Shown: positions 20,196 to 43,084 of the stretch, piece by piece | Layout of the letters: the number at the start of each line of letters is the position of its first letter | How positions within the stretch are numbered: the stretch's first letter is position 1 | Source of the DNA: an uncultured archaeon | GTDB taxonomy: Archaea > Thermoproteota > Bathyarchaeia > 40CM-2-53-6 > CALIRQ01 | Assembly (NCBI GenBank): GCA_938042195.1 | Contig: CALIRQ010000004.1 | Location: 1-64,000 of the forward strand | Length of the DNA stretch: 64,000 nucleotides | Direction of reading: 5' to 3' | Made by a program: the position numbers and the translations under genes | Notes under the pieces: model-generated | The model's input: the letters and a program-made list of their open reading frames with translations, nothing else | Told to the model about the DNA's origin: nothing | The model's database searches: none

Positions 20196-21305
20196 TTAGG
20201 CCTCTATGATGGCGGCCACTGGTCCCCCGCCCGGCGGCCCCTGATGCTCCGATCCGCCCGATACGTAGACCATCGGGTCTCCAACTATTGATGCAATAAC
20301 AGCGTTCACAACAGCCCGCATATGCCTCGTGCTGCTGATATCCGAGTCCGTCAGGAGCGTCGTCCGCCTCCCTCGGACCCTCCCGGTTGGGTGGGCCCCT
20401 CCCTTCGCGAAGACGTTCACGACCCTCTTCTGTAGGGCCGGGGGAGGGCAACAGTCGAACTTAAGGCCCGCGCTCCTTAAAGCCTCCTTGACGCCTTCGG
20501 CATCTATCCCATCCCTCATCACGCTGTGCCCAATCCTGTATTTGCTGATGGATTTCGTCGAGTTCCCCATCAGTATTATCTCATCGTTAAGTAGCTCGAT
20601 GCCCGCAGAGGTCGATGCGGTCGTGGAGTAGAGGCTCCAATCCATGCATATTACGGAATCGTTCAACTTCTCCTCATCGATCTCTCCTAGGGCCAAGGCT
20701 ACGCCCAGCGCGGACGCGCCCCTGGAGTAACCCATGGACTTTAGGGTATCCGTGGTGACCACCGACTTCCCCCTCTTCATGGCGTCGTTGATCCTCTCGG
20801 AGGTCAAGAGGGGGCATTTGATCTGCACAAAGTGTACGTCCTTGGGGTCCTCTATCTCAGCATCCCTCATCGCCTCCTTTACGGCCTTCGCGACCTCCCG
20901 AACTTGGACCATCGTCCCTATCTCCTCGGGAAGGAAGTCCCTAGTGAAGGCCACGCCGATCGCGAGCCTCTTGTCCTTTCCCTCCGCCGCCCTAACCTCC
21001 TTCTTGGTGAAGATCGTTGCGTGTGGAGACGAAACGCCCTCGCACCCCCCAGAATTGACCAAGGCGACCCTCTTGCTCACCTGCTCTCGCGAGATGCCCA
21101 ACTTCTCCGATAGGAGTAATTGGAATGCCAGCGTGGCGAGGCCCCTTGTGAAGTCGTTGACGAGCCCGTTGCCCTCGGTCTTTGTTATTATGGCGACTAT
21201 GTCCCTCGGATCGATCTCTCCGGAATCGATCAACCTTCTCAGCTGGGAAACGTCGTCGGGGGAATCCATTGGGATCTTATAAACCCCTACGTCCATAACC
21301 TTCAT
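20196..21305 (-). CDS. Ring-opening amidohydrolase, cyanuric acid hydrolase/barbiturase family
   Basis: A 369-residue member of the AtzD/TrzD/barbiturase family, which hydrolyses one amide bond of cyanuric or barbituric acid. The fold has three repeated domains, each giving a Lys-Ser pair, and all are visible: K42 in IITKTEGNG with S85 in [13 protein letters not shown]; the Lys in [10 protein letters not shown] with the Ser in [12 protein letters not shown]; the Lys in [11 protein letters not shown] with the Ser in [15 protein letters not shown]. Length fits the family (355-370). ATG 21305 follows GGTGAGGG by 8 nt. It is the third gene of an operon after FdrA and DUF1116, 10 nt downstream. 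Cyanurate and barbiturate specificities cannot be told apart by eye. Confidence 0.93.
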
Positions 21306-21315
21306 AATCAAACCC

Positions 21316-22713
21316 TCACCCGAACTCCTCGGCCAACCTCTTTAAAGCTTTTTCAAAGCACTCCATCGGTGCCCTCGTCAGCCCCGCGCCTATCTGGCCG
21401 ATCCCCGGCTCCCTATGGGCTATCCCGGTGTTTATGAATGGCGCGATTCCGGTCGCGATGACCTTCCTTACGTCTATGCCCGTGGGGGTGCCCTCGAAGT
21501 TGAGGTTTGGGATCGTGAAGTTCCCGTTCTTGGCAACGGTGATCTCGTACATCTCCCTCGTGTAATCGATGGCCTCTTGGGGCGATCCGCCGACGAACTG
21601 GACTATGGCCGGCGCGGCCGCCATTGCGAACCCCCCTATCCCGGCCGTCTCCGCGATGCTACTGTCGCCCAGATCCGGGTTCGCATCCTCGGCCTTGTAG
21701 CCCGGGAAGTAGAGGCCCTTGACGAACGGCGCTGGGGCCGTGAACCATTCCTCGCCCGTCCCAGCGACCTTCAGGCCGAACTCCGTCCCGTTCCGAGTCA
21801 TCGCCCTGACGAGGGATGAGCCCTCGAGGCCGGCCAGCGAGTCCATCATGGCCTTACAGGAGGCCATGGAGAGATTCAGGAAGAAGTGATCCGTCTCCGA
21901 TAGGTATTTGGCCACCTCCCCCACGATGTCATTCGATAGGCCCGCCCGGAGTAGGTGGGGCATGAAGGCCCTGGTGAAGAGCGATGTGGCCGCCACGTTC
22001 CTGTTGTGGCACTCGTCGCCCATGTGAAGCGCCCGCGCTATTAGGTTCCTAAGGTCTATCCCGCCCGCCTCCTCGATGCCCGCCGCCAGGGCCGGGGCTA
22101 GGGTCCCCTCGATCCACCGGAGCCTCTTAATGACCTCGGGCCCATAAGCCCCGAACCTCAGGACCTTCCCGAAGCCCTCGTTTATGTTCGAGTAGGCATA
22201 GTTGCCCAGCGCTTTATCCTTGACCACGAATACGGGCATGCTGGGCGATATGACGCCGGCCATCGGGCCCACCGCCGAATGCTCGTGGCATGGTTCGAAA
22301 ATTATCTCTCCAGACCTCAGGAGCCTCTCCGCCCCTTCGGGGGAATCCGCCAAACCTTCGAGCAAGGCCGCGCCGATCATGGCACCCCGCATGGGGCCGC
22401 ACATCCTATCCCAAGTCACGGGAGGCCCGGCGTGGAGGAACATATCCTCGCGCATCCCCGGAATGGCCTCCAAGGCCTTTTTGATGCCCACCAAGACGGG
22501 TTGGCTCTTCAGGACCCTCTCGATCCCCTCCCGGTTCGCCCGATCGACCTCGTCCCTCTCGAGCAGCGAGAGGAGCTTTATCTTCTCCGGATCCCCTCCC
22601 GCGGGCGGCCGCCATTCCACGTGTATAACTCCGACTTTTTGCTCCTCCAAGCTCTTGGCGAAAGATTCCAAGCCCAGATTAACTACCGAGATCCCCGCTC
22701 TCGTGATCCCCAT
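21316..22713 (-). CDS. DUF1116/YlbE (AllG-like) carbamoyltransferase component
   Basis: A 465-residue DUF1116 protein, homologue of E. coli YlbE/AllG. In E. coli allantoin degradation AllF, AllG and AllH (FdrA, YlbE, YlbF) together with carbamate kinase AllK serve the oxamate carbamoyltransferase step. Family stretches seen: [46 protein letters not shown] and [19 protein letters not shown] 22713 is preceded by AGGTGAG; the FdrA stop is 6 nt upstream. Here it precedes the ring-opening hydrolase, suggesting action on the carbamoyl group of the opened product. Confidence 0.92.
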
Positions 22714-22719
22714 CAAGGC

Positions 22720-24300
22720 TCACCTCAAACCAAAGGCCCCCTTGAGCTTCCCCCTCGTGGCGATCAAGGAGGCCATCCGTACGGCCTGGGCATTGCTCGG
22801 CATCACTATAACGCCCGCGTCCTCCAGCTTCCTCACTTGGGCGCTAAAGCCTTGCGGGTCCTCCTCAGTTCCCACCACGGATGCGACGAAGGAGAGGTAG
22901 CGGCCCTTCCTCTCGGCCGTGGCCCTCGCCTCCTCTATGAAGGGCTTAAGGGCGCCCGCCGGATCCGGGTGGGCCCCGTAACCCAAGACCACGTCGAACA
23001 ATATGACGGCCACGCTCGCATCCCTCGCCTCTCGGAGGATCCGCTCCTGCCTCTGTCCCGGATCTATCATCGGGTGGGGCTTGCCCTTGGTGAACTCCTC
23101 CTCGCCCATGTCGATGCACGTATTGCCCTTGCCGGGTTGGAGGCCGGAGATTTTGAGCTCAGGGTCCATGGGGGTATTTGAGTAGACCGGACCAATCAAT
23201 CCCGTCAGGATCGCTATGGATTCCTCGCAAAGGGATCCGCCGGAGAATAGGCCGCGCACGAACCTCTGCCTCCCGGAGAAGCGCTTATACTCCGCCTTGG
23301 CCTTCGAAAGTATCTCCTCCCCCCTCATGGTGAAGGCCTTCGGAACGTACCTCCTCTTCGACGCGAGCGAAACGGCTCGGAGGGCCGCCTCCTCCAAGGT
23401 CCCGGCTGGGATCCCACCCGCCTCCCTGATGAGCGTTGGGTTCCCGCCGATGAAGTCCACAACAACGGGCTTCTCGATCCTCTCGATCGCGTTGGCCAGC
23501 TTCCGCTCCACATCCGGGTGAGGGAGCTTCGAAACTAGGACGATTACCTCCGTTTCTGGATCTTCTTCGAGCAGCTTCATACCCTGTAACATAGTAATGC
23601 CGCCGACCTCTCGCCAAAGATCCCGTCCCCCCGTGCCTATGGCTTGCGTGATGCCCGAGCCGCTCCTATGGATCAGCGTAGTGACCTCCTGTAGGCCTGT
23701 CCCGGCGGCCCCGACGACCCCTATTGGCCCCTTCCTCACGGCATTCGCGAACGCCAAGCCGGCTCCATCGATGATCGCGGTGCCGCATCCGGGCCCCATC
23801 ATCAGGAGGCCCTTCTCCTTGGCGAGCCTCTTCAGCTCGATCTCATCCTCGAGGGGGACGTTGTCGCTGAAGAGGAGGACGTGGAGGCCCCTCCTCAACG
23901 CCTTGAGGACCTCGAGCTTCGCGAACTCCCCCGGGACCGATATGAGCGCGAGGTTCGCTTGAGGGTTTCGGTCCAAGGCGCTTTCGAGGCTCTTGGGCCG
24001 GATCAGGCGCTCCCGCGGGGCTGGCCGCCCCGCCCGCAGGAGTTCCTCTGCAGCCGCCAATGCGCTCCGAGCGGCATCCTCCGATATCGCCTCGATCACT
24101 ATGACCAAGTCGTTCGGGGCGGCGGATTTGGCCTCATCGGTGAGGAGCCCCGCCTCCCGCAAAAGCTTCTTGTTCTGCTCGGTCGCCATGACCGCGCCGA
24201 CCTGCTTGATGCCCTTGAGCGAACCGAGCTTGCTGGAGATCGTCATGAGCGAGCTGGAATCCCAGTACGTATTCTTCTTCACCATCGTGCTTAAAACCAT
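22720..24300 (-). CDS. fdrA: FdrA (AllF-like) carbamoyltransferase component
   Basis: A 526-residue FdrA protein with a succinyl-CoA-synthetase-like architecture: VKKNTYWDSSSLMTISSKL at the start, a nucleotide-type Rossmann segment GVVGAAGTGLQEVTTLIHR followed by SGITQAIGTGGRD, and a ligase-like C-terminal domain with LFSGGSLCEESI. FdrA is the AllF part of the phosphorolytic oxamate carbamoyltransferase. First gene of the operon FdrA, DUF1116, ring-opening hydrolase. ATG 24300 sits about 10 nt after the predicted transcription start; ATG 24285 is a second candidate. Confidence 0.92.
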   Translation of the reverse strand: MVLSTMVKKNTYWDSSSLMTISSKLGSLKGIKQVGAVMATEQNKKLLREAGLLTDEAKSAAPNDLVIVIEAISEDAARSALAAAEELLRAGRPAPRERLIRPKSLESALDRNPQANLALISVPGEFAKLEVLKALRRGLHVLLFSDNVPLEDEIELKRLAKEKGLLMMGPGCGTAIIDGAGLAFANAVRKGPIGVVGAAGTGLQEVTTLIHRSGSGITQAIGTGGRDLWREVGGITMLQGMKLLEEDPETEVIVLVSKLPHPDVERKLANAIERIEKPVVVDFIGGNPTLIREAGGIPAGTLEEAALRAVSLASKRRYVPKAFTMRGEEILSKAKAEYKRFSGRQRFVRGLFSGGSLCEESIAILTGLIGPVYSNTPMDPELKISGLQPGKGNTCIDMGEEEFTKGKPHPMIDPGQRQERILREARDASVAVILFDVVLGYGAHPDPAGALKPFIEEARATAERKGRYLSFVASVVGTEEDPQGFSAQVRKLEDAGVIVMPSNAQAVRMASLIATRGKLKGAFGLR

Positions 24301-24334
24301 AGTTTATTCCTCACAGCTGTCTGCGGACGGCTTC

Positions 24335-24346
24335 AAATTTAAGCTT
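24335..24346 (-). promoter_or_regulatory. TATA box of the fdrA operon
   Basis: Minus-strand GCTTAAATTTGA about 35-45 nt upstream of ATG 24300. The 156-bp gap is shared with the divergent DUF2877 gene, so a regulator could control both sides from here. Confidence 0.5.
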
Positions 24347-24456
24347 TTCCAATCGGATCGGCCGATCGAAGAGCCATGGCCACCGAGCGACTCGCCCAGA
24401 AGCGAAAAACTTTTGGATCCGTGGCTCGGAATTAAGCCATAGGTCAGCCGAGTTCG

Positions 24457-25422
24457 ATGTGCGGCCATTTGATGCAAGCCTTCGGAATCTCCATGGGCTC
24501 ATCCGCCAAAAAGGCCCTCAATAAGAGGGGCGAGATCGGACGGGTCCACAGCATCTTCCAGAATACCTTGTATATCCTGACGGGGAATCGGAGGCTGATC
24601 GGGGTAGTCGGCCCTAGGTCTTACAACATGCCGATCAACCTCAAGGTTTGGCTTCCAGAAAGATTGGCGATTGGGGATTTGGGGTTGAGCCAGGGGATCC
24701 CGGTGTGGCGCTCTGGCGATCTGTTAATGATTGGCGGCGGTCTTTCGGTAGACCTCCGCGGGATCAGGATCTGGAAGCCCGTCGGGAGGAAGCGCTTGGT
24801 TTTGGATGGGGCCAAGCTCCTCCGTTCCATTGAGGAGGTCGAGAATGCCGCATTGGAAAGGGCCTCCGCCGAGGGCTTCGGGCCATTGATCCCCCACAGG
24901 GAGGGTTTGATCGCCAACGACCTATATGGAGTTCCTTCGGGCGAGCCGGTGATATCGAATGCTGCTAGATGTATTGCCAACCTCTTCAAGGCCGTCAAGG
25001 AGCATGATCCGATCGGAATCGATCGGAACGTGATCGGTTTGATCGGCTTGGGCCCCGGGCTTACGCCTTCCGGTGACGATTTCCTGACGGGATTTTTGGC
25101 GAGCCTGATATTCGGGGTTAGGAGTTGTCCCCATCGATTTAGGTTCCCGATCGGAAGCCTACGGGAATCGATTCTGAGGGCGAGGATCTCGACGACGCTC
25201 GTGAGCCAAGAGTTCCTCCTACACGCGGTCGAGGGGCACGTTGCCGAGCCGGTCAATGACCTCATAGCGGCCCTCTTCGATGGGGGCCCCCAGTTGCGCC
25301 TGCTGACCCATAGGGTGGTCGATATGGGTGAAACTTCGGGCAGCGATATAATACTAGGCATCCTTATCGGGGTTTCGTTGCTCATTCAAACGATGGAGTC
25401 GGCACATGAGCTCAAGTTTTGA
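24457..25422 (+). CDS. DUF2877 (YlbF/AllH-like) carbamoyltransferase component
   Basis: A 321-residue DUF2877 protein, homologue of E. coli YlbF/AllH, the third protein of the AllFGH set. Family signatures GLGPGLTPSGDDFLTGFLAS (about 195-214) and GETSGSDIILGI near the C-terminus are intact. It is transcribed away from the fdrA operon. ATG 24457 is used; ATGs at 24472 and 24493 are possible. All three components plus carbamate kinase are therefore present on about 5.6 kb. Confidence 0.9.
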   Translation: MCGHLMQAFGISMGSSAKKALNKRGEIGRVHSIFQNTLYILTGNRRLIGVVGPRSYNMPINLKVWLPERLAIGDLGLSQGIPVWRSGDLLMIGGGLSVDLRGIRIWKPVGRKRLVLDGAKLLRSIEEVENAALERASAEGFGPLIPHREGLIANDLYGVPSGEPVISNAARCIANLFKAVKEHDPIGIDRNVIGLIGLGPGLTPSGDDFLTGFLASLIFGVRSCPHRFRFPIGSLRESILRARISTTLVSQEFLLHAVEGHVAEPVNDLIAALFDGGPQLRLLTHRVVDMGETSGSDIILGILIGVSLLIQTMESAHELKF

Positions 25423-25881
25423 ACCCAAAGCCCGACTTCTTGACCGTCTCTTTAACCGATTGTTTTCGATTATTTAGGACGGATTTATCGATCAATTTTT
25501 CGAAAAAGAGGATTAATGAACCCCTCCCTAGCGCATGTAAAAACTGTTTTCCAAAAAAAGAAAGTCTTTCAAGCGCGTGCTTTCGAAGGGGCTAAATACG
25601 TATTCTTTTGAAATTGAAATGCCACGTTTTTATACGTTCCCAATGGGGCAACCGGGTTTATTCTTCACTTTGAAAAGGCGTTTGATTAATGCGCCGATAA
25701 TGCTGGCCTTCGTGGTTGCCTATTGATTTACATATTTAAGGATTATGTGGGGTAAGGGAAACATGAGGGCAAGAGAACATTGGTTCGGAATTTGGGCTCA
25801 AATTTTAAATAAAAGGGGGATTTCGTTTCGCTCCGCGCTGCGGTAAATCGCTCCGGAACGGAGCCGGATGACCGGTGGGTA
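25423..25881. other. A+T-rich intergenic region with hairpin and a possible 27-residue ORF
   Basis: A 459-bp gap between convergent genes, clearly richer in A+T than its flanks. A perfect stem-loop GCTCCG-GAA-CGGAGC at 25850-25864 sits 18 bp beyond the stop of the minus-strand permease and may aid termination. A plus-strand 27-codon frame (ATG 25763 to TAA 25846, MRAREHWFGIWAQILNKRGI...) follows ACATATTTAAGG and GGTAAGGG, but I do not recognise it. No RNA gene was recognised. Confidence 0.4.
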
Positions 25882-27243
25882 TCAGCGCATGGCCCCGGCG
25901 ATCAGAGACAACACGATGGCGATCACCAAGGCGATGGGCATATAGGGGGTGTTGTTCTTTATCACTTTTGGAATCTCCGTCTTAAAGCCGTGAGCGGTAG
26001 CGGCGACGTTTATCTGGACCGGGCTTATCATGGCGCCATAAGCTATCCCATAGTTGACGAACCCAAAGGCCCATATCGGGATCCCCGCCTCCTTAAGAAC
26101 GGGAAGGATCAAGGACATGACCATCACCGTATAGGCTCCGGCCGGGACGCCGACGGCGAAGCCTATGATGATCGCTGCCACCACAACGACTTGCAAGGGA
26201 ACGGCCCTCACGAGATTTGCCAAGGTCGTAAAAGTCCCGATCTCCGCTATGATATTGATGAACCCCAAGAAGAACCCGGCATAGAACAGGTACCAAAGGA
26301 TCGTCCTGCCCCCCTCGATGAGCCACTCGCCGATCTTATTCGGATGGACCTTGAGGCAGAGGGCCGTGACGATTATGACGAGGAATGGTGTCGAGATTAT
26401 CGTGAAGATCGTCTGCTTGGTTATCTGGTTTATGGCCGGGCCCAATACGATCATTATGAGGAAGAAGATGAAAGGAAATGCCCTCAGGAGCATTGTGGAT
26501 AGAGGCTTCTCCTCTCCGACGGCCGCACTGGCTACCTGGGCGGGGTTTTGCTGAATTGGAGAGGCCGCTTGGGCCTCGACCATGCCCGGCCTGATCAGGC
26601 CCCTCTGGGCTGCCCTTCTGGTCGAGTAAACGGCTATCGCGATGCCAACCGCCCACATGAAGAACGTGAACGGCCGCATCATATCAGCGTAGACCGGGAC
26701 TTCGATCCCAGCTATCTTCGCCGTTACGGCCGATTCGGCCGAGGAGGGCGAGGTCGTCCAGGATGTGGGAGAAACGATCGAAAGCCCAGCGACGACCCCT
26801 GGTATCCAGCCTACCGTAGAATATATCAGCGGGGCCGTGATCAGCGTGTTGGCAGCCCCACAACCGGCCATATAGACCGCTGCCGCTTGAGTGAAGACCA
26901 TCAAGCCCACGACGACCTCGATCCTTTTCTTGAATATCCTCTGTATGAGCTCCACGAAGGCCCTCGTCCCGCCAGCGGTGGCGACGAACATCGCAGTTGA
27001 GGCGTAGATGATCACCGAAGCTATCCCGAGGATCCCGGTGATGCCTCCAACGAAGACGGAAGTTATCTTTGGGATTGTTAAGGGCTTATCCAAGAAGAGC
27101 CATCCGAAGATTATCGCGAGCAAGGCTCCAGTAAAACCCGCTACTTGGACTTGGGCCCTTTTGCCCCTCCAGCCTATTGCCATGAGCAATATGACCACAA
27201 GGGGAACGACCCGAAGTACCTCCTCGAGTGCCAAAAGCCACAC
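25882..27243 (-). CDS. Ion-transporter-superfamily permease, probable carboxylate/anion type
   Basis: A 453-residue integral membrane protein with about 11-12 helices and two pseudo-repeats. The loop VYMAGCGAANTLITAPLIYS and the later MISPVQINVAATAHG resemble the substrate-binding hairpins of IT/DctM/CitM-like carriers. It is flanked by AllFGH components and carbamate kinase, so import of an acidic ureide or export of a product (for example malonate, oxamate or an amino acid) is plausible. GTG 27243 start with AGGTG immediately before; ATG at residue 21 is less likely because it would remove a helix. Substrate unknown. Confidence 0.7.
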   Translation of the reverse strand: MWLLALEEVLRVVPLVVILLMAIGWRGKRAQVQVAGFTGALLAIIFGWLFLDKPLTIPKITSVFVGGITGILGIASVIIYASTAMFVATAGGTRAFVELIQRIFKKRIEVVVGLMVFTQAAAVYMAGCGAANTLITAPLIYSTVGWIPGVVAGLSIVSPTSWTTSPSSAESAVTAKIAGIEVPVYADMMRPFTFFMWAVGIAIAVYSTRRAAQRGLIRPGMVEAQAASPIQQNPAQVASAAVGEEKPLSTMLLRAFPFIFFLIMIVLGPAINQITKQTIFTIISTPFLVIIVTALCLKVHPNKIGEWLIEGGRTILWYLFYAGFFLGFINIIAEIGTFTTLANLVRAVPLQVVVVAAIIIGFAVGVPAGAYTVMVMSLILPVLKEAGIPIWAFGFVNYGIAYGAMISPVQINVAATAHGFKTEIPKVIKNNTPYMPIALVIAIVLSLIAGAMR

Positions 27244-27333
27244 CTTCTTTTCCTTAGTATATTTTACAATGCTAGAGGAGATAATAAAGTTTTCTCAGAA
27301 ATTTTATTAGTTCCCTCTTTAAAGTCAATCTAT

Positions 27334-28281
27334 ATGAACGAAATTCTCGTGATCGCACTAGGAGGAAATGCAATCAAAAGGGCTGAACAATTGGGAACCG
27401 CGGAGGATCAACTCCGCAACTTGCGGGTCACCTGCGATCAAATATCCGAAGTGGTGAAAAGGGGCTATAGGCTTGTCATCACCCATGGCAATGGCCCGCA
27501 GGTTGGAGACCTCTCGTTGCAACAGGAATTGGCGAAGGGCATGGTCCCGCCACAGCCATTGGACATCCTAGGGGCCATGACCCAGGGGCAGATCGGATAC
27601 ATGATCCAGCAATCTTTAGGAAATGCCCTAAGGGGGCGGGGGTTGGACGTGCCGGTGGTCACGGTACTCACGCAAGTCATCGTCGACCCGAAGGATCCGG
27701 CCTTCGAGGATCCAACGAAGCCCATAGGGCCTTTCTATGATGAGGAGGAGGCGAAGAAGGCATCTGAAGAGAGGGGCTTCTTCATCAAAGAGATAAAGGA
27801 GTTCGGAGATAAACGCTTCAGGAGGGTCGTCCCATCGCCGGAGCCCCAAGAGGTTGTCGAGAGAGATGCCATACGAAAATTACTAGAGCTCGGATTCATA
27901 GTCATATCGGTCGGAGGAGGGGGCATACCGGTCATCGTGGAAGATGGTCGTCTGAAAGGCATTGAGGCGGTCATAGATAAGGACCTCGCAAGCGAGATAC
28001 TCGCAGAAAGCATAGGTGCGGATGTTTTGATGTTTTTGACGGATGTGGACGCGGCCCGCTTGAACTATGGGAAGGCCAATGAGGTCAAGCTTGGTCGCGT
28101 GAGTGCGGCAGAGATGGAGAGATACTACCAAGAGGGGCATTTCCCACCGGGCAGCATGGGGCCCAAAGTCCTAGCCGGGATCAGATTCGTGAAAAGGACT
28201 GGGGGCAAAGCGATAATAACTTCGCTAGATAAAGCCATAGACGCCCTAGAGGGTAGATCCGGGACGTCGATCTTCAGATGA
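27334..28281 (+). CDS. arcC: Carbamate kinase
   Basis: A 315-residue carbamate kinase (carbamoyl phosphate + ADP to carbamate + ATP). Motifs: ALGGNAI at the start, THGNGPQVG, GPFYDEEEA, VISVGGGGIPV, VIDKDLASE and HFPPGSMGPKV. Standard length. In E. coli the equivalent AllK (YbcF) works with AllFGH, and here it sits among the same partners, so it is probably the ATP-yielding step of ureide breakdown rather than arginine deiminase metabolism; no arginine deiminase or ornithine transcarbamylase is present. ATG 27334 lies about 27 nt from a TTTATTAG element, giving a leaderless transcript. Confidence 0.96.
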   Translation: MNEILVIALGGNAIKRAEQLGTAEDQLRNLRVTCDQISEVVKRGYRLVITHGNGPQVGDLSLQQELAKGMVPPQPLDILGAMTQGQIGYMIQQSLGNALRGRGLDVPVVTVLTQVIVDPKDPAFEDPTKPIGPFYDEEEAKKASEERGFFIKEIKEFGDKRFRRVVPSPEPQEVVERDAIRKLLELGFIVISVGGGGIPVIVEDGRLKGIEAVIDKDLASEILAESIGADVLMFLTDVDAARLNYGKANEVKLGRVSAAEMERYYQEGHFPPGSMGPKVLAGIRFVKRTGGKAIITSLDKAIDALEGRSGTSIFR

Positions 28282-28353
28282 GGTAATCGCAACTGGAGCG
28301 AGGAGCGGGGCCACGCCCTGGCAAATCCTTTAAGGAAAGGAGCGGCTTCCGGG

Positions 28354-29034
28354 TCACTTTAGGCCGCGAATCGCTTCGATGAACCTCTTCGAGTCCGAAA
28401 CCCAGCCGAATATTCCGCCCTGCGCTTTGATCATCTTTATGCCAACCTCGTGGAACTCCGGGAAATAGGAGGCAACGCAATCCTCGAGCACTAGGCATTC
28501 ATAGCCCCTGTCATTCGCTTCCCTGACGGTCGTATGTACGCACACTTCGGTCGTAACCCCGGTGATTACCAAGTATTTAATTCCCCAATTTTGCAGGATG
28601 AGATGGAGGTCCGTAGCATAAAACGATCCCTTTCCAGGCTTATCGATTACAGGCTCGCCCTCCAACGGCTTCAGCTCATCTATGATCTCATGGCCCTTTT
28701 GTCCCCTCACGAGGACCCTCCCCATTGGGCCCTCATCCCCGATGCGTATCTTCAACCTCCCCCTCCTGAGTTTGCTGGGAGGGCAATCCGATAGATCTGG
28801 GCGGTGTCCCTCGCGGGTATGTATCACCTTGATCTCAGTCCCGCGTACAGCGCTGAGGACGTTTCTTATGGGCTCTATCGCCCTCCTAAGAAGGGATACG
28901 TCATTGCCCAAGAACTCTCCAAATCCCCCAGGCTTGAGGAAGTCGTTCTGCATATCGATAACCATAAGGGCCGTTGCCCGTGGCTCAAATTCAAAATCAT
29001 ATGGCTCCGCCTTTACTACTATTTTCTCATTCAT
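28354..29034 (-). CDS. Isochorismatase-fold cysteine hydrolase, biuret hydrolase-like (copy 1)
   Basis: A 226-residue cysteine hydrolase. The Asp-Lys-Cys triad of the superfamily is visible: D27 in VIDMQNDF, K132 in VIDKPGKGSF, C165 in GVTTEVCVHTT. The Lys-Cys spacing of 33, HTREGHRPDLSDCP and QGGIFGWVSDS match biuret hydrolase/ureidoacrylate hydrolase relatives. Proposed role: removal of ammonia from an opened ureide such as biuret. ATG 29034 overlaps the stop of the upstream NCS2 permease (ATGA); ATG 29043 is also possible. Coupling to a nucleobase-type permease supports the catabolic role. Confidence 0.88.
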   Translation of the reverse strand: MNEKIVVKAEPYDFEFEPRATALMVIDMQNDFLKPGGFGEFLGNDVSLLRRAIEPIRNVLSAVRGTEIKVIHTREGHRPDLSDCPPSKLRRGRLKIRIGDEGPMGRVLVRGQKGHEIIDELKPLEGEPVIDKPGKGSFYATDLHLILQNWGIKYLVITGVTTEVCVHTTVREANDRGYECLVLEDCVASYFPEFHEVGIKMIKAQGGIFGWVSDSKRFIEAIRGLK

Positions 29035-30575
29035 CTCGACCATCCCCCTCCGGCTTCGGATTTTTTAAAGAATTTGATCAATAGGAAAATGACCGTGAGG
29101 ATCGCATATCCAATTGTGACTTCCCAGGCCGCAGCGAAAGCCACCCTTCCGCTATGGATGATCCCGACGAATGACAGGGCTGCCCCGAACGAGGAGAATA
29201 TGGCCGCTTTGCTCCAATCCCTATCGATTACGAATGCTCCAATAGCCCCCCAGATCAAGCCGACGAGGATTGCGCCACCGCTCAATATCTCCAAGCCTTT
29301 ATACGCGATTCCCGCCGAGGCCAACGTCCCATATCCGACCTCGGCCGCCGTCTTCCCGACAGTTCCCAAGGCGCCATCAACCAGATTCTTCCCCCAAGAG
29401 GCGAAGTTGGGGATCAGGGCCAGGACGATGGCCGGCGCATGCTTCAATGGGCTGGCTTGGAAGGCTTGGGCCCCTATTACGGCTCCAATGTATACGAGTA
29501 TTGGGAGGACGCAAACCAAGGGAATTATTGACAGTACTAAGGGCAGTATGCCGAGGAGGCATACGATACCTATGGCGATCCCGGTTCCGAGGGAGTAGCC
29601 GATGCGCCCGCCGATGGATTTCCATCCGGGATGGCCGATGTACACCGCGGTTGGGAATGGGCTTCCCAAAACCGCTCCCGCCAAGGTCCCGACCCCATCC
29701 ACGAAAATTACTTCGGAAACGTTATATTCGTCTCCAGCTGCGGCTGCGCTCTCGACGTTGTTAAAGGCCTCGGTGAAGTTGTAGATTCCCATAGGTATGG
29801 CAGTGGATAGGAGCGGAGCGAACTCCCCTAAACCCTGCAGTAAGTCGGAAACGGCGAGGGAGGGCAAGTATGGAGCGAAGCCCGCGATGGCCTCCATAAG
29901 GGGCTTCGGCTTCATATATCCCGTGAGCCACCCTACGGCGGTACCTATGAGGATCATCAGCAGGCCGCCTGGCATTTTGAGGGGCATTGGGACTATGGCG
30001 AACCAGGCCACCAAGATTATCCCGAAGGAGATGAAACCGATCCAGGGGACTTCCGACATCTGCATCGCGGGCGTCATGCTGATGAAGGCGATCGAAATCC
30101 CGGCGAGCGTGCCGAGCATTGCGGCGCGCGGCGTATGCTGGCGTATTACTTTCCCAAAATATGCGCCGGAGACCTCAATGAGACCTTCGATGAAGCACCA
30201 CGCAAGCCCTATGCGCCATGCGAGCACCGGATCGCCCGTCTTGAGGACTACCGGGAGCATTATCACGAGCGTGACGAGGAAGTAATGGGGAACGCTGGGG
30301 CCGTATGGAAGGGCGGTCACATCGTCCCTCTTCTCCTTCTTCGCCAATCTTTTTGCCATATGGGCATAATAAAAATTCCCAACTATGAGGGATATGCCAA
30401 CGGCCGGGATGATGCGGCCGAAGACGATCTCCGCGGGCATCCTCACGACGAAAAGCATCAGGCTGCTAAGGACCATGACGTTCATTAGGACGTTGGTCCA
30501 TAACCCAAAGAAGGCATTCCAGTCGCCGGACACCCACCATGAGCCGTACTTTCCTTTCGACGCTTCCGGGTTCAT
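29031..30575 (-). CDS. NCS2-like (AzgA-type) nucleobase/ureide permease
   Basis: A 514-residue permease with about 12-14 helices, of the purine/xanthine/uracil permease superfamily. The central segment NFTEAFNNVESAAAAGDEYN followed by GTLAGAVLGSPFPTAVYIG corresponds to the AzgA-type substrate-site region. Translationally coupled to the downstream cysteine hydrolase, so it very likely imports that pathway's substrate. GGTGAG is 9 nt before ATG 30575, and TATA CTTATTAATAAG lies 24 nt upstream. Exact ligand unknown. Confidence 0.85.
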   Translation of the reverse strand: MNPEASKGKYGSWWVSGDWNAFFGLWTNVLMNVMVLSSLMLFVVRMPAEIVFGRIIPAVGISLIVGNFYYAHMAKRLAKKEKRDDVTALPYGPSVPHYFLVTLVIMLPVVLKTGDPVLAWRIGLAWCFIEGLIEVSGAYFGKVIRQHTPRAAMLGTLAGISIAFISMTPAMQMSEVPWIGFISFGIILVAWFAIVPMPLKMPGGLLMILIGTAVGWLTGYMKPKPLMEAIAGFAPYLPSLAVSDLLQGLGEFAPLLSTAIPMGIYNFTEAFNNVESAAAAGDEYNVSEVIFVDGVGTLAGAVLGSPFPTAVYIGHPGWKSIGGRIGYSLGTGIAIGIVCLLGILPLVLSIIPLVCVLPILVYIGAVIGAQAFQASPLKHAPAIVLALIPNFASWGKNLVDGALGTVGKTAAEVGYGTLASAGIAYKGLEILSGGAILVGLIWGAIGAFVIDRDWSKAAIFSSFGAALSFVGIIHSGRVAFAAAWEVTIGYAILTVIFLLIKFFKKSEAGGGWSR

Positions 30576-30598
30576 TCCAATTTTCTCACCTAAATTAT

Positions 30599-30610
30599 CT
30601 TATTAATAAG
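30599..30610 (-). promoter_or_regulatory. TATA box of the NCS2 permease/hydrolase operon
   Basis: Palindromic CTTATTAATAAG 24 nt upstream of ATG 30575, followed by the ribosome site GGTGAG. Confidence 0.55.
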
Positions 30611-30770
30611 CTTTTGCAAAGGCGGATGTGAGGCTCATCTATGCGCTACACCGGCACATAGGCCCGCTCGATCGCCGCCCATCCAAGGCATCACTGGACC
30701 TGATGGTTGGGTTGAGAGTGGCCAATGGCCATATAGTTAAAAATAGTTTAAGGGAGGCTAAGCTTTTAGA

Positions 30771-32072
30771 TCAAGCGGAAGGCCTTGGCTTTGTGAATAT
30801 CATTCGTTCCAATATTATCACAACGATTATGACCGATATTACTGGATTGCTGAATACCGTGGCCACCAATCTCGGCACTTGGGCCCAGAACCCAGTGGGC
30901 AATGTGCTCAAACCGAAGCAGAGGAATACCGAGAATCCAACTATAAATATCTCCCTGCGACCGAACTCCTGGCTCCTCCAAATATCCGCCCCTATGCCGA
31001 TCACCGTAGATGCGATCCCGATCAAGATCGCCCCGGCCACCGGTTTCGGCATGGCCGCCATGAATCCGCCCATGGGCCCGAAGAACCCCACTATGATGAA
31101 TATGATGGAGCCCACGAGCAAGAAGTATCGGGATGCGACCCTAGTCAGCGTGATTATGCCTAGGTTCTCCCCATATGGGACGAGGCCTGGGACACCCAGC
31201 AACCCAGCTAGGGACGTCTCGACGAGGCCCAATACGGAGAACGATCGCCTCGCTTGGGGCTTTGAGACCGTATGGCCAACGATCGAGCCCCATCCCGTTA
31301 TATTCCCATATAGGTTCAATGCGGCCATGAGGTTCACGATGGTCATCGTCACTATTAAGTCGGCGGGGGGAATACCGGCTCCGTAGGGGAAGAACTTCGG
31401 TACGGCTATGAGGGGCAATCGCGTGACCGTTTCCCAGTCAAACATTCCAGCCCCGATGAAGATCGCGTAGCCCGCAACGATTACGATCAGCGTGGGGATA
31501 GTGGATATGAGGCCCTTCCCCTTAATCGAAACGATGCCAGCGGCCAATGCGAGACCGATGCCGACCAATAGTGGCCATCCCGGGCCATGCGCCGCGATCA
31601 GCGACGCTCCCAAACCCGCTATTGCCAATCCGACCATCATGACCATGGAGCCCAAGACCAAGGGGCTCCAAACCTTGGAGATATATCCCACCACTCCAGC
31701 TGCACCGAGTACGAATACGACGACCCCGGCGATCGCTTGGGCATTGAATGATAGAAGCGCGTATTCCCTCCCGCCTATCGCCAGCGCCGAGAGTATTGCT
31801 AGGGAGGGGATTATGTTCGGCCCGGATACCATGGCAAACCTATGCCCGGCATAGGCCTGGGCGAATGTCGATAGGCCGATCATCAGGACGACCGTGGCCA
31901 TATATCCAGCCATGACCTCCCCCGTGAACCCGAGGCCCAGGCCAACGACCGCGTAACCCCATACGACGCAGTAGAAAAGGGTCACGACCCATTGGAAGCC
32001 GTATATGGCTATATCCCTAGCCGACCTTGGTTTCTCATCCACATCATAGACCAGTTCGAACGATTTACCCAT
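30771..32072 (-). CDS. NCS2 family uracil/xanthine-type permease
   Basis: A 433-residue permease of the UraA/PbuX branch: about 12-14 helices, HRFAMVSGPNIIPSLAIL in the helix-3 region, and the helix-8 to helix-10 area NLMAALNLYGNITGW with PGLVPYGENLGIITLTRVAS. UraA-type carriers are proton symporters for uracil and related pyrimidines. A second nucleobase permease beside the ring-opening hydrolase island suggests that more than one cyclic substrate is taken up. It lies between the two cysteine hydrolase genes and starts at ATG 32072. Confidence 0.9.
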   Translation of the reverse strand: MGKSFELVYDVDEKPRSARDIAIYGFQWVVTLFYCVVWGYAVVGLGLGFTGEVMAGYMATVVLMIGLSTFAQAYAGHRFAMVSGPNIIPSLAILSALAIGGREYALLSFNAQAIAGVVVFVLGAAGVVGYISKVWSPLVLGSMVMMVGLAIAGLGASLIAAHGPGWPLLVGIGLALAAGIVSIKGKGLISTIPTLIVIVAGYAIFIGAGMFDWETVTRLPLIAVPKFFPYGAGIPPADLIVTMTIVNLMAALNLYGNITGWGSIVGHTVSKPQARRSFSVLGLVETSLAGLLGVPGLVPYGENLGIITLTRVASRYFLLVGSIIFIIVGFFGPMGGFMAAMPKPVAGAILIGIASTVIGIGADIWRSQEFGRREIFIVGFSVFLCFGLSTLPTGFWAQVPRLVATVFSNPVISVIIVVIILERMIFTKPRPSA

Positions 32073-32326
32073 TCGAGCTCTCCCAGGGTATGGCCAACGT
32101 CTCCTTTAAGCTTTTGGCCCCTCTCTTCGGCGCTGTTGCTTTAAGCCGCCTTTATGGATCGCCTTCTGCGAATCCCTCACGTCCAAGCTTTGATGGGCCA
32201 GATTTCAACCCCGTCGATTCGAGGAAGCCTATTCTGAGCCCCTTTTGGATTTGGATGCGCCCGAGAATGGCCCGGAGGTGGATTCCCATAGCCACCTTAA
32301 GGCAAGTGCCCCCGTTTAGGCTTACA

Positions 32327-32340
32327 TTATATATAAATAA
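32327..32340 (+). promoter_or_regulatory. Strong TATA box upstream of the second biuret hydrolase-like gene
   Basis: TTATATATAAATAA is the best TATA match in the island. The predicted start (about 25 nt on) falls on an ATG at 32358 that opens a 29-codon frame ending at 32447, overlapping the first codons of the hydrolase in another frame. Confidence 0.6.
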
Positions 32341-32433
32341 TCGTTCCCAATATTATCATGTGGCTACCGCTGCCGTTCCAGCGTTGGCTTGGAATATGGC
32401 AGTTGGTGGCCGAGACAATGGGAAGTGAAGAAA

Positions 32434-33297
32434 ATGGTCCAGATTAGGACTTATGAACCCTTTATGACCAAAGCCCGCGATGACCGCTTAAAGAAGGTGG
32501 AGGAGGCTTATGAGCAATTCAAGAAGGATAGAACCTTTCATTTTCCCACATGGCTCTACGGGGAGCCTCTCGGGAAGTTATTCAAGGTCGAGGTCGAGGA
32601 TTGCCCAAGGTTTGGAGACACCGCTTGGCTGGAGTTTGATTCGGCGAGGACTGCGTTCTTGGTCATAGATATGCAGATAGATTTCTGTGGGAAGAAGGGA
32701 TATGTCGATGTAATGGGGTACGATCTATCCCTAACGGCGGCGCCGATCAAACCCATCAGGGCTTGCCTAGACGCCATTCGGGGGACGGATATCAAGGTAA
32801 TATACACGAGGGAGGGCCATCTGCCCGATCTGTCGGATTGTCCGTTCAACAAGATCCTGAGGAGCAAGATAATTGGGAACGGCGTTGGCATTGGGGATAC
32901 GCCGCCGGGTGGCCTTGGCAGGCTCTTGATCAGGGGCGAAAGGAACTGGGACATAATAGAAGAGCTCTACCCGATGCCGGGAGAGTACGTCGTCGATAAG
33001 GCCAGCAAGGGCGCTTTCCACCAGAGCACCATGCTCCAGCAACTCTTGAATATCTTCCCCCCGCCAACGCACCTGGTCATAACGGGGATCACTACGGACG
33101 TATGCGTGCACACGATCATGAGGGAGGCCAATGACTTCGGATACTGGTGCCTATTGCTGAAGGACTGCACGGGAGCTACCGACTACGGAAACTACGAAGC
33201 GGCCATAAAGCAAATCAAGATGCAGGGCGGCGTATTCGGCTGGGTTTCGGACTCGAAGAGGTTCATCGAAGCGGTCAAGGGAGCGGGGCTGAAATAA
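32434..33297 (+). CDS. Biuret hydrolase-like cysteine hydrolase (copy 2, N-terminally extended)
   Basis: A 287-residue isochorismatase-fold hydrolase with D79 in VIDMQIDF, K189 in VVDKASKG and C224 in TTDVCVHT. The stretches DFCGKKGYVDVMGYDLSL, TREGHLPDLSDCP, CTGATDYGN and KMQGGVFGWVSDSKRF are close to biuret hydrolase. About 60 extra charged residues precede the domain, unlike copy 1. ATG 32434 was chosen with GTGAAG upstream. It ends the island and is probably the amidase acting after ring opening: biuret to allophanate if the substrate is cyanurate, or a malonamate-type amide if it is barbiturate (inference). Confidence 0.88.
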   Translation: MVQIRTYEPFMTKARDDRLKKVEEAYEQFKKDRTFHFPTWLYGEPLGKLFKVEVEDCPRFGDTAWLEFDSARTAFLVIDMQIDFCGKKGYVDVMGYDLSLTAAPIKPIRACLDAIRGTDIKVIYTREGHLPDLSDCPFNKILRSKIIGNGVGIGDTPPGGLGRLLIRGERNWDIIEELYPMPGEYVVDKASKGAFHQSTMLQQLLNIFPPPTHLVITGITTDVCVHTIMREANDFGYWCLLLKDCTGATDYGNYEAAIKQIKMQGGVFGWVSDSKRFIEAVKGAGLK

Positions 33298-39839: not shown

Positions 39840-40751
39840 TCACGCGATTTTCACAGGAACGTTTAATGCATCCGAGATGAGTTCCTTATAGTATAAGAGC
39901 TCCTCCCCTTCGACTGGGTTGACGCATCCTAATTGGTAGTTCCTCCCCAATAACCTATATTTCGGTACGCCAAATGCATGGTACGGACGGAGAACGACCC
40001 CCTCGACGCTCTTCAGATCGGATATCAACCTCACGATTCCATCGATGACCCCCTTGGACATATTAACGGTTGGTACGAGGGGTATAGAGATTATCATCCT
40101 TCTCCCATACGCATCAATCAATTTTAGGTTCTTTAAGATCAACTCGTTAGACTCTCCGGTATACCTTTTATGGGCTTCTGGATCGCTATGTTTTAAGTCG
40201 TACAGGATCAAATCGGCATAAGGCAAAAGGGGCTTGACCGCCTCCTCCCAGGGGGCATGCCCACACGTTTCGATGGCGGTATCGATGCCCATCCTTTTGG
40301 CGCCCCTCATGATCTCCATGGAGAAATCCGGTTGATAAAGCGGCTCCCCGCCAGATAACGTTATTCCGCCGCCCGAGTCGCGATAGAACTTCACATCCCT
40401 CCCCGCCACCTCCAGCACCTCCTCAGCATTCTTCACCTCCCCGACCATTTCCAACGCGCCATTCGGGCAAGATTCCACGCACTTGCCGCATGAATCGCAT
40501 CTTTGCCTGTTTATGACAAGCCCTTCATCCCTCGCCTCAATAGCCCTTTTGGGGCAAATGGCTACGCAAATAAAACATCTCTTACATCTATCTTCGTAAT
40601 ACAGCACCTCGGGGAATGGATTTTGTCCCTCCGGATTGGAACACCAAATGCACCTCAATGGGCAACCCTTCAAGAAGATAACGGTTCTAATCCCGGGGCC
40701 GTCGTGAACGCAGTATCTCTGGATATTAAATATAACTCCGCGTGCCTTCAT
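39840..40751 (-). CDS. Glycyl radical enzyme activase (radical SAM)
   Basis: A 303-residue PflA-like activase that uses S-adenosylmethionine to place the glycyl radical on its partner. The radical SAM motif CPLRCIWC (about 30-37) is followed by two ferredoxin-type clusters (CKRCFICVAICP and CDSCGKCVESCP), then SGGEPL. The inserted ferredoxin domain marks the class serving dehydratase- or decarboxylase-type glycyl radical enzymes rather than plain pyruvate formate-lyase. It starts 17 nt after the enzyme gene, same operon. Confidence 0.96.
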   Translation of the reverse strand: MKARGVIFNIQRYCVHDGPGIRTVIFLKGCPLRCIWCSNPEGQNPFPEVLYYEDRCKRCFICVAICPKRAIEARDEGLVINRQRCDSCGKCVESCPNGALEMVGEVKNAEEVLEVAGRDVKFYRDSGGGITLSGGEPLYQPDFSMEIMRGAKRMGIDTAIETCGHAPWEEAVKPLLPYADLILYDLKHSDPEAHKRYTGESNELILKNLKLIDAYGRRMIISIPLVPTVNMSKGVIDGIVRLISDLKSVEGVVLRPYHAFGVPKYRLLGRNYQLGCVNPVEGEELLYYKELISDALNVPVKIA

Positions 40752-40768
40752 TTACAAGCACTTATGAT

Positions 40769-43084
40769 TCAAAGTATATGCTCCGTCCTTCTTATGATCT
40801 CATCCTGTAAGCTCTTCGGCAAATCCACGAATCTCGCGCTATATCCTGAAACCCTGACCAAAAGCCCTTGATATCTCTCCGGATATCGCTGGGCATCCCT
40901 GAGGACCTCGGATGTAATTATGTTCATCCCTATGCCAAACCCACCAAGCCTGAAAAACGTTCTGACGAATGCGATTAACTTCCGAACATCGTCATCCGAC
41001 CTCGCCACCGAGGGGTGAAACGTTATGGTCAGCGCCGTTCCATTCGATATCAAATAATGGTCGATCTTTGATGCGGATTTAGCCGCCGCCGTTGGGCCCT
41101 GTAGATCATATACTGGGGATATATTGTTCGCCAGCGGCTCCCCGGCTCTCCGCCCGCTTGGGAGGGCCTTTGTATTTGCGCCGGCGCTGGCGTGGGCTGC
41201 TACCGAGTAGAGCCCGGGCCTATATACGCCGCCCCTGGGATTTCTATATCCGCTCACTTCCGCACAATATCTTTTCGCAACCTCCTTGGCGTATATGTCC
41301 GCCTCGTCCATGTCGTTTCCGTATTTGGGCGCTTTCAATAGCTTCTGCCTCAAGCCCTCCCTTCCCAAAAAGTTTTCCTCAAGCACCTCAATCAATTCCC
41401 CCAATGGAACGATACCATCCTCATAAACTACCTTTTTGATGGCCGCAAGGGAGTCGGCGACATCCGCCAAGCCTATCCCTTGCGGGCCCGTATAGTTATA
41501 CCTTGCGCCTCCGGCCGTAATATCCAATCCCTTTTCGATGCAATCATCGACCAATAGCGAAAGGTATGGGGTTGGCGCGCGCTCTTGATGGGCCAAATCC
41601 CAAGCATTCAACATCGCAATCATATGCCTTACATAGTAGTTGAGCTTTTCATAGAATTTCCCGATTAGCTCATCAAAGCCTATCCCTGGGCTCTCTTTTA
41701 TCTCTTTCAATGTAAGTTCCAGTACTTTAGCTAAGTTTAGGAATGCTGCATTCGTCCATCCGTAAGCGTTCCCAACTGTGGTCGGCTCTTCGCATCCCAC
41801 TATCGCATATCCCCTGGCCTCCCTAAGCGGTACGCCCAGCGAAAGCAATGTCGGGATTATCACATGGTCATTGAAGAATACCGGTTTTCCGGTGCCCCTC
41901 TTCAGCAATTTGATCGCCTCGAACATGAGTTCATCGGGGGTACTTTCATTAACTCTGACGCACAGAGTGGGTTGCTCCATCATTACGTCTCCATCGACCT
42001 TCAAAAACAGGTATGATAATTCGTTGGTTGCATCGCCCCCATCATCGTTTATGCCCCCCAGCGTTATCATTTGGGACATTGTTACCCCACCATACACCCC
42101 TCCTTTCGGAGGCTCATTGACCTTCCTAACTTCGTTAAATTTCAGCCATAAGCATTGAATGAGCTCTTCCGCCTCGCGTTCCGTTACAATCCCCTTTTCC
42201 ACATCGTGTTTAAAGTATGGATAGAGATACTGATCCATGCGGCCTGGGGAAATGGCCAGCCCATCGCTCTCTATTTGAATGATCAAGTGAGTGAACCAGA
42301 GGGCCTGAAGGGCCTCGTGAAAAGTCCTCGCGGGGTTGGCTGGGACGCTTTCGCATATTTTTGATATTTTCAACAGCTCCTCCTTCCTTATGGGATCCTT
42401 GCACATTTCGCTCAATTCCATTGCCAACTTGGAGTATCTCTCGGAGAATTTTATAACGGCATCGCAAACGATCGATGCAGAATTATAAAAGGCCAATTTT
42501 CTAAGGCCCTCGGGATCTGAGGGATCGGTTCTTTTAATCTTTTCTTCGACATCCATTTTGATGCGTTTGAATCCATTCTTCAGAACCTTTTCATAATCTA
42601 CAACTATGTGCCCAACCCCGTTACGCAAGAAAAGCGTAGAGATTATCGGATTGTCTTCGTCATGAAAAACCCTCTTTGCCTCACCTTCCAAAATGGATAA
42701 GCCGAGCTCTTCTACAGTTTTCCCCCTCCAATATGGGAATACGTTCCTTAAATTTTTTTTAGCCTCCTCGCTGATTTCAAATGCATAAAGGGGCCTCTCG
42801 CTCACGGAATCCAATTGCGTTTCCATCCAAGTGCCAAATTCTGGGAATATCGGAGCGGCTTTTGGCTTGCTGGCTTGATTTCCGACTATCAATTCCCCCT
42901 CATTGATATAAATGCTCATATTGGTGAGGATCCTATCCAATGCCTTCGCTCTTTTTATAATGGTCGGCTCATCTTCGCTTTCCATGTAGGCTTGGGTGAT
43001 CAGGAGGGCCCTCTCATGGCATATGGAAGGTTTCGTCGAAGCGAGGAGATCCCTGATCCTTCGGGTCCTCGGAGTCAGCCCCAT
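40769..43084 (-). CDS. Glycyl radical enzyme, dehydratase/lyase type, substrate unknown
   Basis: A 771-residue PFL-superfamily enzyme. The radical glycine is about G747 in RVSGYSARF, and the active-site thiol about C431 in VGCEEPTTVGNAYGWTNAAF. Having one cysteine with a glutamate two residues on (C-x-E) rather than adjacent cysteines marks the dehydratase/decarboxylase/C-N lyase branch (glycerol, propanediol, choline, hydroxyproline enzymes and relatives), not formate acetyltransferase. The residue between them is Glu instead of the usual Val. Strictly anaerobic enzyme. Gene and activase are more A+T-rich than neighbours. The TATA box at about 43110 gives a leaderless ATG 43084. Confidence 0.94.
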   Translation of the reverse strand: MGLTPRTRRIRDLLASTKPSICHERALLITQAYMESEDEPTIIKRAKALDRILTNMSIYINEGELIVGNQASKPKAAPIFPEFGTWMETQLDSVSERPLYAFEISEEAKKNLRNVFPYWRGKTVEELGLSILEGEAKRVFHDEDNPIISTLFLRNGVGHIVVDYEKVLKNGFKRIKMDVEEKIKRTDPSDPEGLRKLAFYNSASIVCDAVIKFSERYSKLAMELSEMCKDPIRKEELLKISKICESVPANPARTFHEALQALWFTHLIIQIESDGLAISPGRMDQYLYPYFKHDVEKGIVTEREAEELIQCLWLKFNEVRKVNEPPKGGVYGGVTMSQMITLGGINDDGGDATNELSYLFLKVDGDVMMEQPTLCVRVNESTPDELMFEAIKLLKRGTGKPVFFNDHVIIPTLLSLGVPLREARGYAIVGCEEPTTVGNAYGWTNAAFLNLAKVLELTLKEIKESPGIGFDELIGKFYEKLNYYVRHMIAMLNAWDLAHQERAPTPYLSLLVDDCIEKGLDITAGGARYNYTGPQGIGLADVADSLAAIKKVVYEDGIVPLGELIEVLEENFLGREGLRQKLLKAPKYGNDMDEADIYAKEVAKRYCAEVSGYRNPRGGVYRPGLYSVAAHASAGANTKALPSGRRAGEPLANNISPVYDLQGPTAAAKSASKIDHYLISNGTALTITFHPSVARSDDDVRKLIAFVRTFFRLGGFGIGMNIITSEVLRDAQRYPERYQGLLVRVSGYSARFVDLPKSLQDEIIRRTEHIL

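Follow-up and report, generated by a model that had tools for sequence, protein, structure and literature searches.

In the anaerobic allantoin pathway of E. coli, encoded by allFGHK (PMC11326118), a compound with a carbamoyl-NH-CO arrangement is phosphorolysed to carbamoyl phosphate, from which ATP is then gained; AllFGH of this organism is an oxamate carbamoyltransferase that interconverts oxalurate plus phosphate and oxamate plus carbamoyl phosphate. In the systems represented by atzDGEHF of Pseudomonas sp. ADP and by the AtzD-BiuH-AtzF route, AtzD opens cyanuric acid to carboxybiuret and BiuH turns biuret into allophanate, while triuret is degraded in Herbaspirillum through TrtA-TrtB-BiuH-AtzF (PMC7948467). 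Clusters that combine biuH with allFGHK occur in ammonia-oxidising archaea and comammox organisms, where biuret and oxalurate degradation were viewed in 2025 as two separate pathways and where the authors' own search of the nitrifier genomes found no atzD (PMC12625717). The ten-gene cluster described here lies at 20196-33297 of a 64,000-nucleotide stretch (positions 1 to 64,000 of contig CALIRQ010000004.1, referred to as the window) from an uncultured archaeon of the Bathyarchaeia. It has the AllF, AllG, AllH and carbamate kinase of E. coli, but a cyanuric acid hydrolase and triuret and biuret hydrolases in place of the allantoin enzymes upstream; it shares ring opening by AtzD and biuret hydrolysis by BiuH with the Pseudomonas-type routes, but AllFGH and carbamate kinase stand in for AtzE, AtzF and urease; it contains the TrtA-type and BiuH-type hydrolases of Herbaspirillum with their signature residues, but lacks AtzF and has AtzD and AllFGHK joined on; and it differs from the likewise archaeal biuH-allFGHK clusters in possessing atzD. 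We consider it probable that the cluster encodes a route from cyanuric acid and triuret to ammonia and CO2 in which part of the energy is kept as ATP.

All ten genes are real and have strong family matches, except for two permeases that belong to no named family:

20196..21311, minus strand: atzD, cyanuric acid hydrolase, the ring opener (PF09663, 541 bits; NF052395, 540 bits against a cut-off of 360)
21316..22716, minus strand: allG, carbamoyltransferase subunit AllG, formerly DUF1116 (PF06545, 323 bits)
22720..24300, minus strand: allF (fdrA), carbamoyltransferase subunit AllF (NF004760, 507 bits against a cut-off of 433; E. coli FdrA structure 3dmy, 288 bits)
24457..25422, plus strand: allH, carbamoyltransferase subunit AllH, formerly DUF2877, divergent from allFG-atzD (PF11392, 82 bits against a cut-off of 25)
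25882..27243, minus strand: perm5, a permease and by association a candidate cyanurate importer (no Pfam or NCBIfam family; INDY-like predicted fold)
27334..28281, plus strand: arcC/allK, carbamate kinase (ATG start at 27334, longest open reading frame from 27145; TIGR00746, 423 bits against a cut-off of 358)
28354..29043, minus strand: trtA-type triuret hydrolase (best solved relative TrtA 6xix; TrtA signature residues F35, N41, E160, Y187 and I205)
29031..30575, minus strand: perm8, a permease and by association a candidate triuret importer (overlaps trtA; UraA-like predicted fold)
30771..32072, minus strand: NCS2-family permease (PF00860, 161 bits)
32434..33297, plus strand: biuH-type biuret hydrolase (longest open reading frame from 32389; best solved relative BiuH 6azo; BiuH signature residues Y, Y, D, T and V)

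The AtzD-family gene, FdrA, DUF1116, the divergent DUF2877 and carbamate kinase had been named in a sequence-only reading of the window and were all recovered with family models, AllF, AllG and AllH each scoring above the family cut-offs with carbamate kinase nearby. The same reading had placed the ring opener in one operon with FdrA and DUF1116, and allF, allG and atzD do form a single minus-strand operon with intergenic gaps of 3-4 bp. The flanks of the cluster appear unrelated to it, with queC to the left and a methyltransferase-like gene to the right. A binning artefact or a bacterial contaminant contig was ruled out by the archaeal PriS, Dph2 and STT3 genes on the same contig and by the presence of the same genes in a congener (G136), which carries AtzD-AllG-AllF, perm5-carbamate kinase-TrtA-perm8 and NCS2-BiuH spread over three contigs, the sequences being 81-94% identical and the gene order matching as far as the contigs extend. 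Cyanuric acid hydrolase, which a 2019 paper confined to bacteria and fungi (PMC6557486), is now placed in archaea.

Cyanuric acid is the likely substrate of the ring opener, because the protein shares 66% of its residues with the crystallised and proven cyanuric acid hydrolase of Moorella and carries Arg188 at a position where barbiturases have Gln (PMC4051656). It keeps K40, R52, S79, K156, R188, S226, E230, K285, R314 and S333 (Azorhizobium numbering), and with them the three Ser-Lys dyads and three active-site arginines of a cyanuric acid hydrolase; all ten residues are also conserved in 21 other AtzD sequences aligned from the loci considered below. The sequence-only reading had allowed for a barbiturate branch, in which the enzyme would open barbiturate and the resulting ureidomalonate would be phosphorolysed to malonamate and carbamoyl phosphate. 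That the family includes barbiturases and that an NCS2 permease could take up pyrimidine-like rings are in keeping with such a branch, but the window protein scores 506 bits against the Moorella enzyme and 314 bits against a barbiturase, lies far above the cut-off of the NCBIfam cyanuric acid model and has TrtA and BiuH in the same cluster. We regard the barbiturate branch as highly improbable, barbiturate being ruled out as a substrate by the active-site residues and the identity to cyanuric acid hydrolase.

Two biuret-hydrolase-like enzymes had also been proposed, and while both belong to the hydrolase family, only one is of the BiuH type. Both isochorismatase-fold hydrolases fall below the cut-off of 370 bits of the NCBIfam BiuH equivalog model, at 287 and 273 bits, the latter for the biuH-type gene at 32434-33297, and they were assigned by the residue positions that tell TrtA from BiuH (PMC7948467). 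The protein of 28354-29043 has F, N, E, Y and I at these positions, which is the TrtA pattern, together with the catalytic D24, K129 and C162 of TrtA, and it carries Ser for A134 of TrtA, a change that was neutral for triuret activity in a published mutant. The open reading frame at 32389-33297 shows the BiuH pattern Y, Y, D, T and V and keeps the catalytic Asp, Lys and Cys. The closest solved structures, TrtA 6xix and BiuH 6azo respectively, agree with these classes. As one gene is of the TrtA type and the other of the BiuH type, triuret is probably a second input of the route.

In the proposed scheme AtzD would hydrolyse cyanuric acid, and TrtA triuret, both to 1-carboxybiuret, which would spontaneously lose CO2 to give biuret; for the AtzD or TrtA product this decarboxylation has a half-life of about 20 minutes (PMC7948467). 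BiuH would convert biuret to allophanate, AllFGH would cleave allophanate with phosphate to carbamoyl phosphate and carbamate, or alternatively carboxybiuret with phosphate to carbamoyl phosphate and allophanate, and carbamate kinase would yield ATP, ammonia and CO2 from carbamoyl phosphate. For cyanuric acid, comparative genomics lends good support to ring opening followed by phosphorolysis, the core of the earlier proposal; for barbiturate there is no such support. The canonical last step, allophanate hydrolase AtzF or urease, was not found in the window genome (93.6% complete): searches of this genome and of the 95% complete congener revealed no urease and a single amidase in each, and the sole amidase of the window genome is GatA (603 bits, beside gatB), which leaves allophanate without a known hydrolase. 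The search for a hidden allophanate hydrolase or urease was thus negative, and the absence of these enzymes, earlier noted for the cluster, extends to the genome as assembled. Heat-driven decarboxylation of carboxybiuret found no support, as reverse gyrase did not exceed its cut-off. An allantoin or hydantoin route was likewise rejected, the only two Amidohydro_1 proteins of the genome resembling a SAH/MTA-type deaminase and a dihydroorotase, the latter scoring also to allantoinase models, below their cut-off.

A protein-based scan with one genome per species, which recovers only relatives near the query, yielded 23 AtzD loci, all recorded as bacterial. In 16 of these, atzD has allF/allG no more than 10 kb away, often accompanied by allH, carbamate kinase and a perm5-type permease, and three of the others (L004, L020 and L023) stop at or just past atzD. 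AllG was present in all 19 AtzD genomes examined, as compared to a background of about 6% (16/245 in the class of C. ultunense and 22/398 in the archaeal phylum), while AtzD itself is rare (1/391 genomes; 2/398 in the archaeal phylum, both of this genus). By a naive calculation, which is limited by the non-independence of related genomes, the linkage of AtzD with AllFG is far above chance. The neighbourhood is not peculiar to this assembly, as it is found in the congener and in those 16 bacterial loci, and numerous bacteria that are not related to one another and are mostly anaerobic, among them Bacillota, Chloroflexota and Pseudomonadota, share the combination. The novelty claimed for archaea holds insofar as no earlier description was found in the open-access literature, but the route is mainly bacterial and not an archaeal peculiarity. 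In Melaminivora alkalimesophila, which we take from its name to be a melamine degrader, allF-allG-atzD follow the order of the window, and its AtzD is an almost identical match to crystallised TrzD (785 bits). In a Halolactibacillus genome, away from the atzD locus, two perm8-type permeases flank a TrtA-like gene, and allH-allF-allG-arcC follow in the same operon (L095:7826-16505); by its gene content this is the triuret counterpart of the module.

Seven bacterial genomes (G398, G399, G400, G403, G404, G408 and G416) contain AtzD and AllFGH; they have no close BiuH (best match at most 80 bits, as compared to 274-288 bits for window-type enzymes), no urease beyond short weak matches, and at most one amidase each, with GatA-like scores. 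With no other known downstream enzyme to act there, AllFGH of these bacteria would be expected to use carboxybiuret or biuret. A Lachnospiraceae locus (L022, 9463-14840), in which an allophanate hydrolase split into two genes (amidase part and C-terminal part) lies by AtzD and AllFGHK, fits the cleavage of carboxybiuret to carbamoyl phosphate and allophanate. In the archaeon allophanate is most likely the AllFGH substrate, because BiuH is present. Allophanate and carboxybiuret are structurally similar to oxalurate, sharing the carbamoyl-NH-CO arrangement and a carboxylate.

The same gene content might instead reflect two parallel pathways, with AtzD, TrtA and BiuH freeing the nitrogen of cyanurate and triuret, and AllFGHK independently breaking down imported oxalurate. 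E. coli AllFGH uses oxamate and oxalurate, and the co-located biuH and allFGHK of nitrifiers have been interpreted in this way (PMC12625717), but such an arrangement would leave allophanate without an enzyme in this genome, the cluster shows no allantoin-pathway genes, and neither the occurrence of AllG in 19 of 19 AtzD genomes with repeated operon-level pairing nor the seven bacteria devoid of another downstream enzyme would be explained. We judge parallel pathways unlikely. On balance we favour AllFGH as an allophanate/carboxybiuret (or biuret) carbamoyltransferase, through which cyanuric acid and triuret would be fermented with a gain of one, possibly two, ATP per molecule, in an apparently undescribed route that was assembled several times and spans a number of bacterial phyla and a single archaeal genus. 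Several points weigh against this interpretation: published AllFGH assays cover only oxamate and carbamoyl phosphate as substrates, with a high Michaelis constant for oxamate; the decarboxylase TrtB was not identified, there being no reference sequence for a search; a gene may have been overlooked in genomes that are 93.6% and 95% complete; and BiuH, though present in the archaeon, is missing from most relatives, which is compatible with more than one AllFGH substrate.

Carbamoyl phosphate is a pyrimidine precursor, and the route might operate as proposed but serve nitrogen supply or the biosynthesis of pyrimidines and arginine instead of energy conservation. The genome has a dihydroorotase, which makes pyrimidine synthesis likely, but the clusters of the window and the congener, like many of the bacterial loci, include a carbamate kinase of their own, as does the catabolic allFGHK operon of E. 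coli. A biosynthetic purpose therefore appears quite unlikely, and energy gain is the purpose we infer.

Phylogenetic analysis places the archaeal AtzD as the sister of a clade made up mainly of Bacillota sequences (bootstrap/Shimodaira-Hasegawa-like approximate likelihood ratio test support 89/88, with uncertain rooting), which is consistent with transfer from bacteria, and the archaeal AllG is placed near other archaeal AllG, without strong support. AtzD-linked AllG proteins do not form one clade (approximately unbiased test, p = 7e-53), and a single inherited AtzD-AllFGH unit was rejected for AllG by this test. AtzD and AllFGH were thus probably brought together on more than one occasion, and such repetition speaks for a functional link between them. 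Within the complex, a C-terminal stretch of some 45 residues in E. coli AllF (L102:1681-3348) is homologous, at 40% identity, to the N-terminus of the window AllG; this segment, at the end of AllF in E. coli but at the start of AllG in the window, suggests a move between the two subunits and their close contact.

The earlier count of two NCS2 permeases and a third permease stands in part: only 30771-32072 is recognised as NCS2 by Pfam, whereas no Pfam or NCBIfam family recognises perm8 (29031-30575), which is NCS2-like by predicted fold only, matching UraA. The predicted fold of perm5 (25882-27243) matches the INDY/ion-transporter superfamily; the models of perm5 and perm8 are of medium confidence (mean predicted local distance difference test score 76-77). 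Each of the seven bacterial TrtA-like genes found has a perm8-type permease beside it, and a perm5-type permease accompanies AtzD in many bacterial loci; purely by association, perm8 is therefore a candidate importer of triuret and perm5 of the cyanurate anion.

No earlier proposal of this route, joining AtzD or biuret to AllFGH, carbamoyl phosphate or carbamate kinase, was found in the open-access literature. If correct, the route would explain how AtzD organisms devoid of allophanate hydrolase or urease complete the pathway, would give AllFGH a second role and the biuH-allFGHK clusters of ammonia-oxidising archaea and comammox organisms a single-pathway reading, and would suggest that cyanurate and triuret, mostly viewed as pollutants, can serve anaerobes as energy sources. 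Isolates exist for Tissierella, Proteiniclasticum, Amphibacillus, Halolactibacillus and Melaminivora, making the route directly testable.

Further features were observed at related loci. The TrtA-like proteins of L004, L007, L011, L093, L094 and L095 have His and Phe in place of E160 and Y187, a pair of residues that neither TrtA nor BiuH shows there, and their substrate preference may differ. A cytosine-deaminase-like amidohydrolase adjoins atzD in eight loci (e.g. L003:11129-12331, L007:7079-8251 and L015:11097-12437) and is possibly an ammelide deaminase supplying cyanurate. A PucR-type regulator accompanies atzD in 14 bacterial loci (e.g. L005:8068-9765), and in an alphaproteobacterium (L017:5852-9892) two genes resembling the alpha and beta subunits of caprolactamase, below cut-off, adjoin atzD. 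Two other archaeal AllFGH loci that were scanned, both without AtzD, have a molybdenum hydroxylase of the xanthine dehydrogenase family nearby (L072:12014-15821 and L074:10964-13315), which suggests a different source of ureide. Outside the cluster, the window encodes a glycyl radical enzyme of the PFL2/glycerol dehydratase family (778 bits against a cut-off of 678) adjoining its radical-SAM activase (39840-43084, minus strand).

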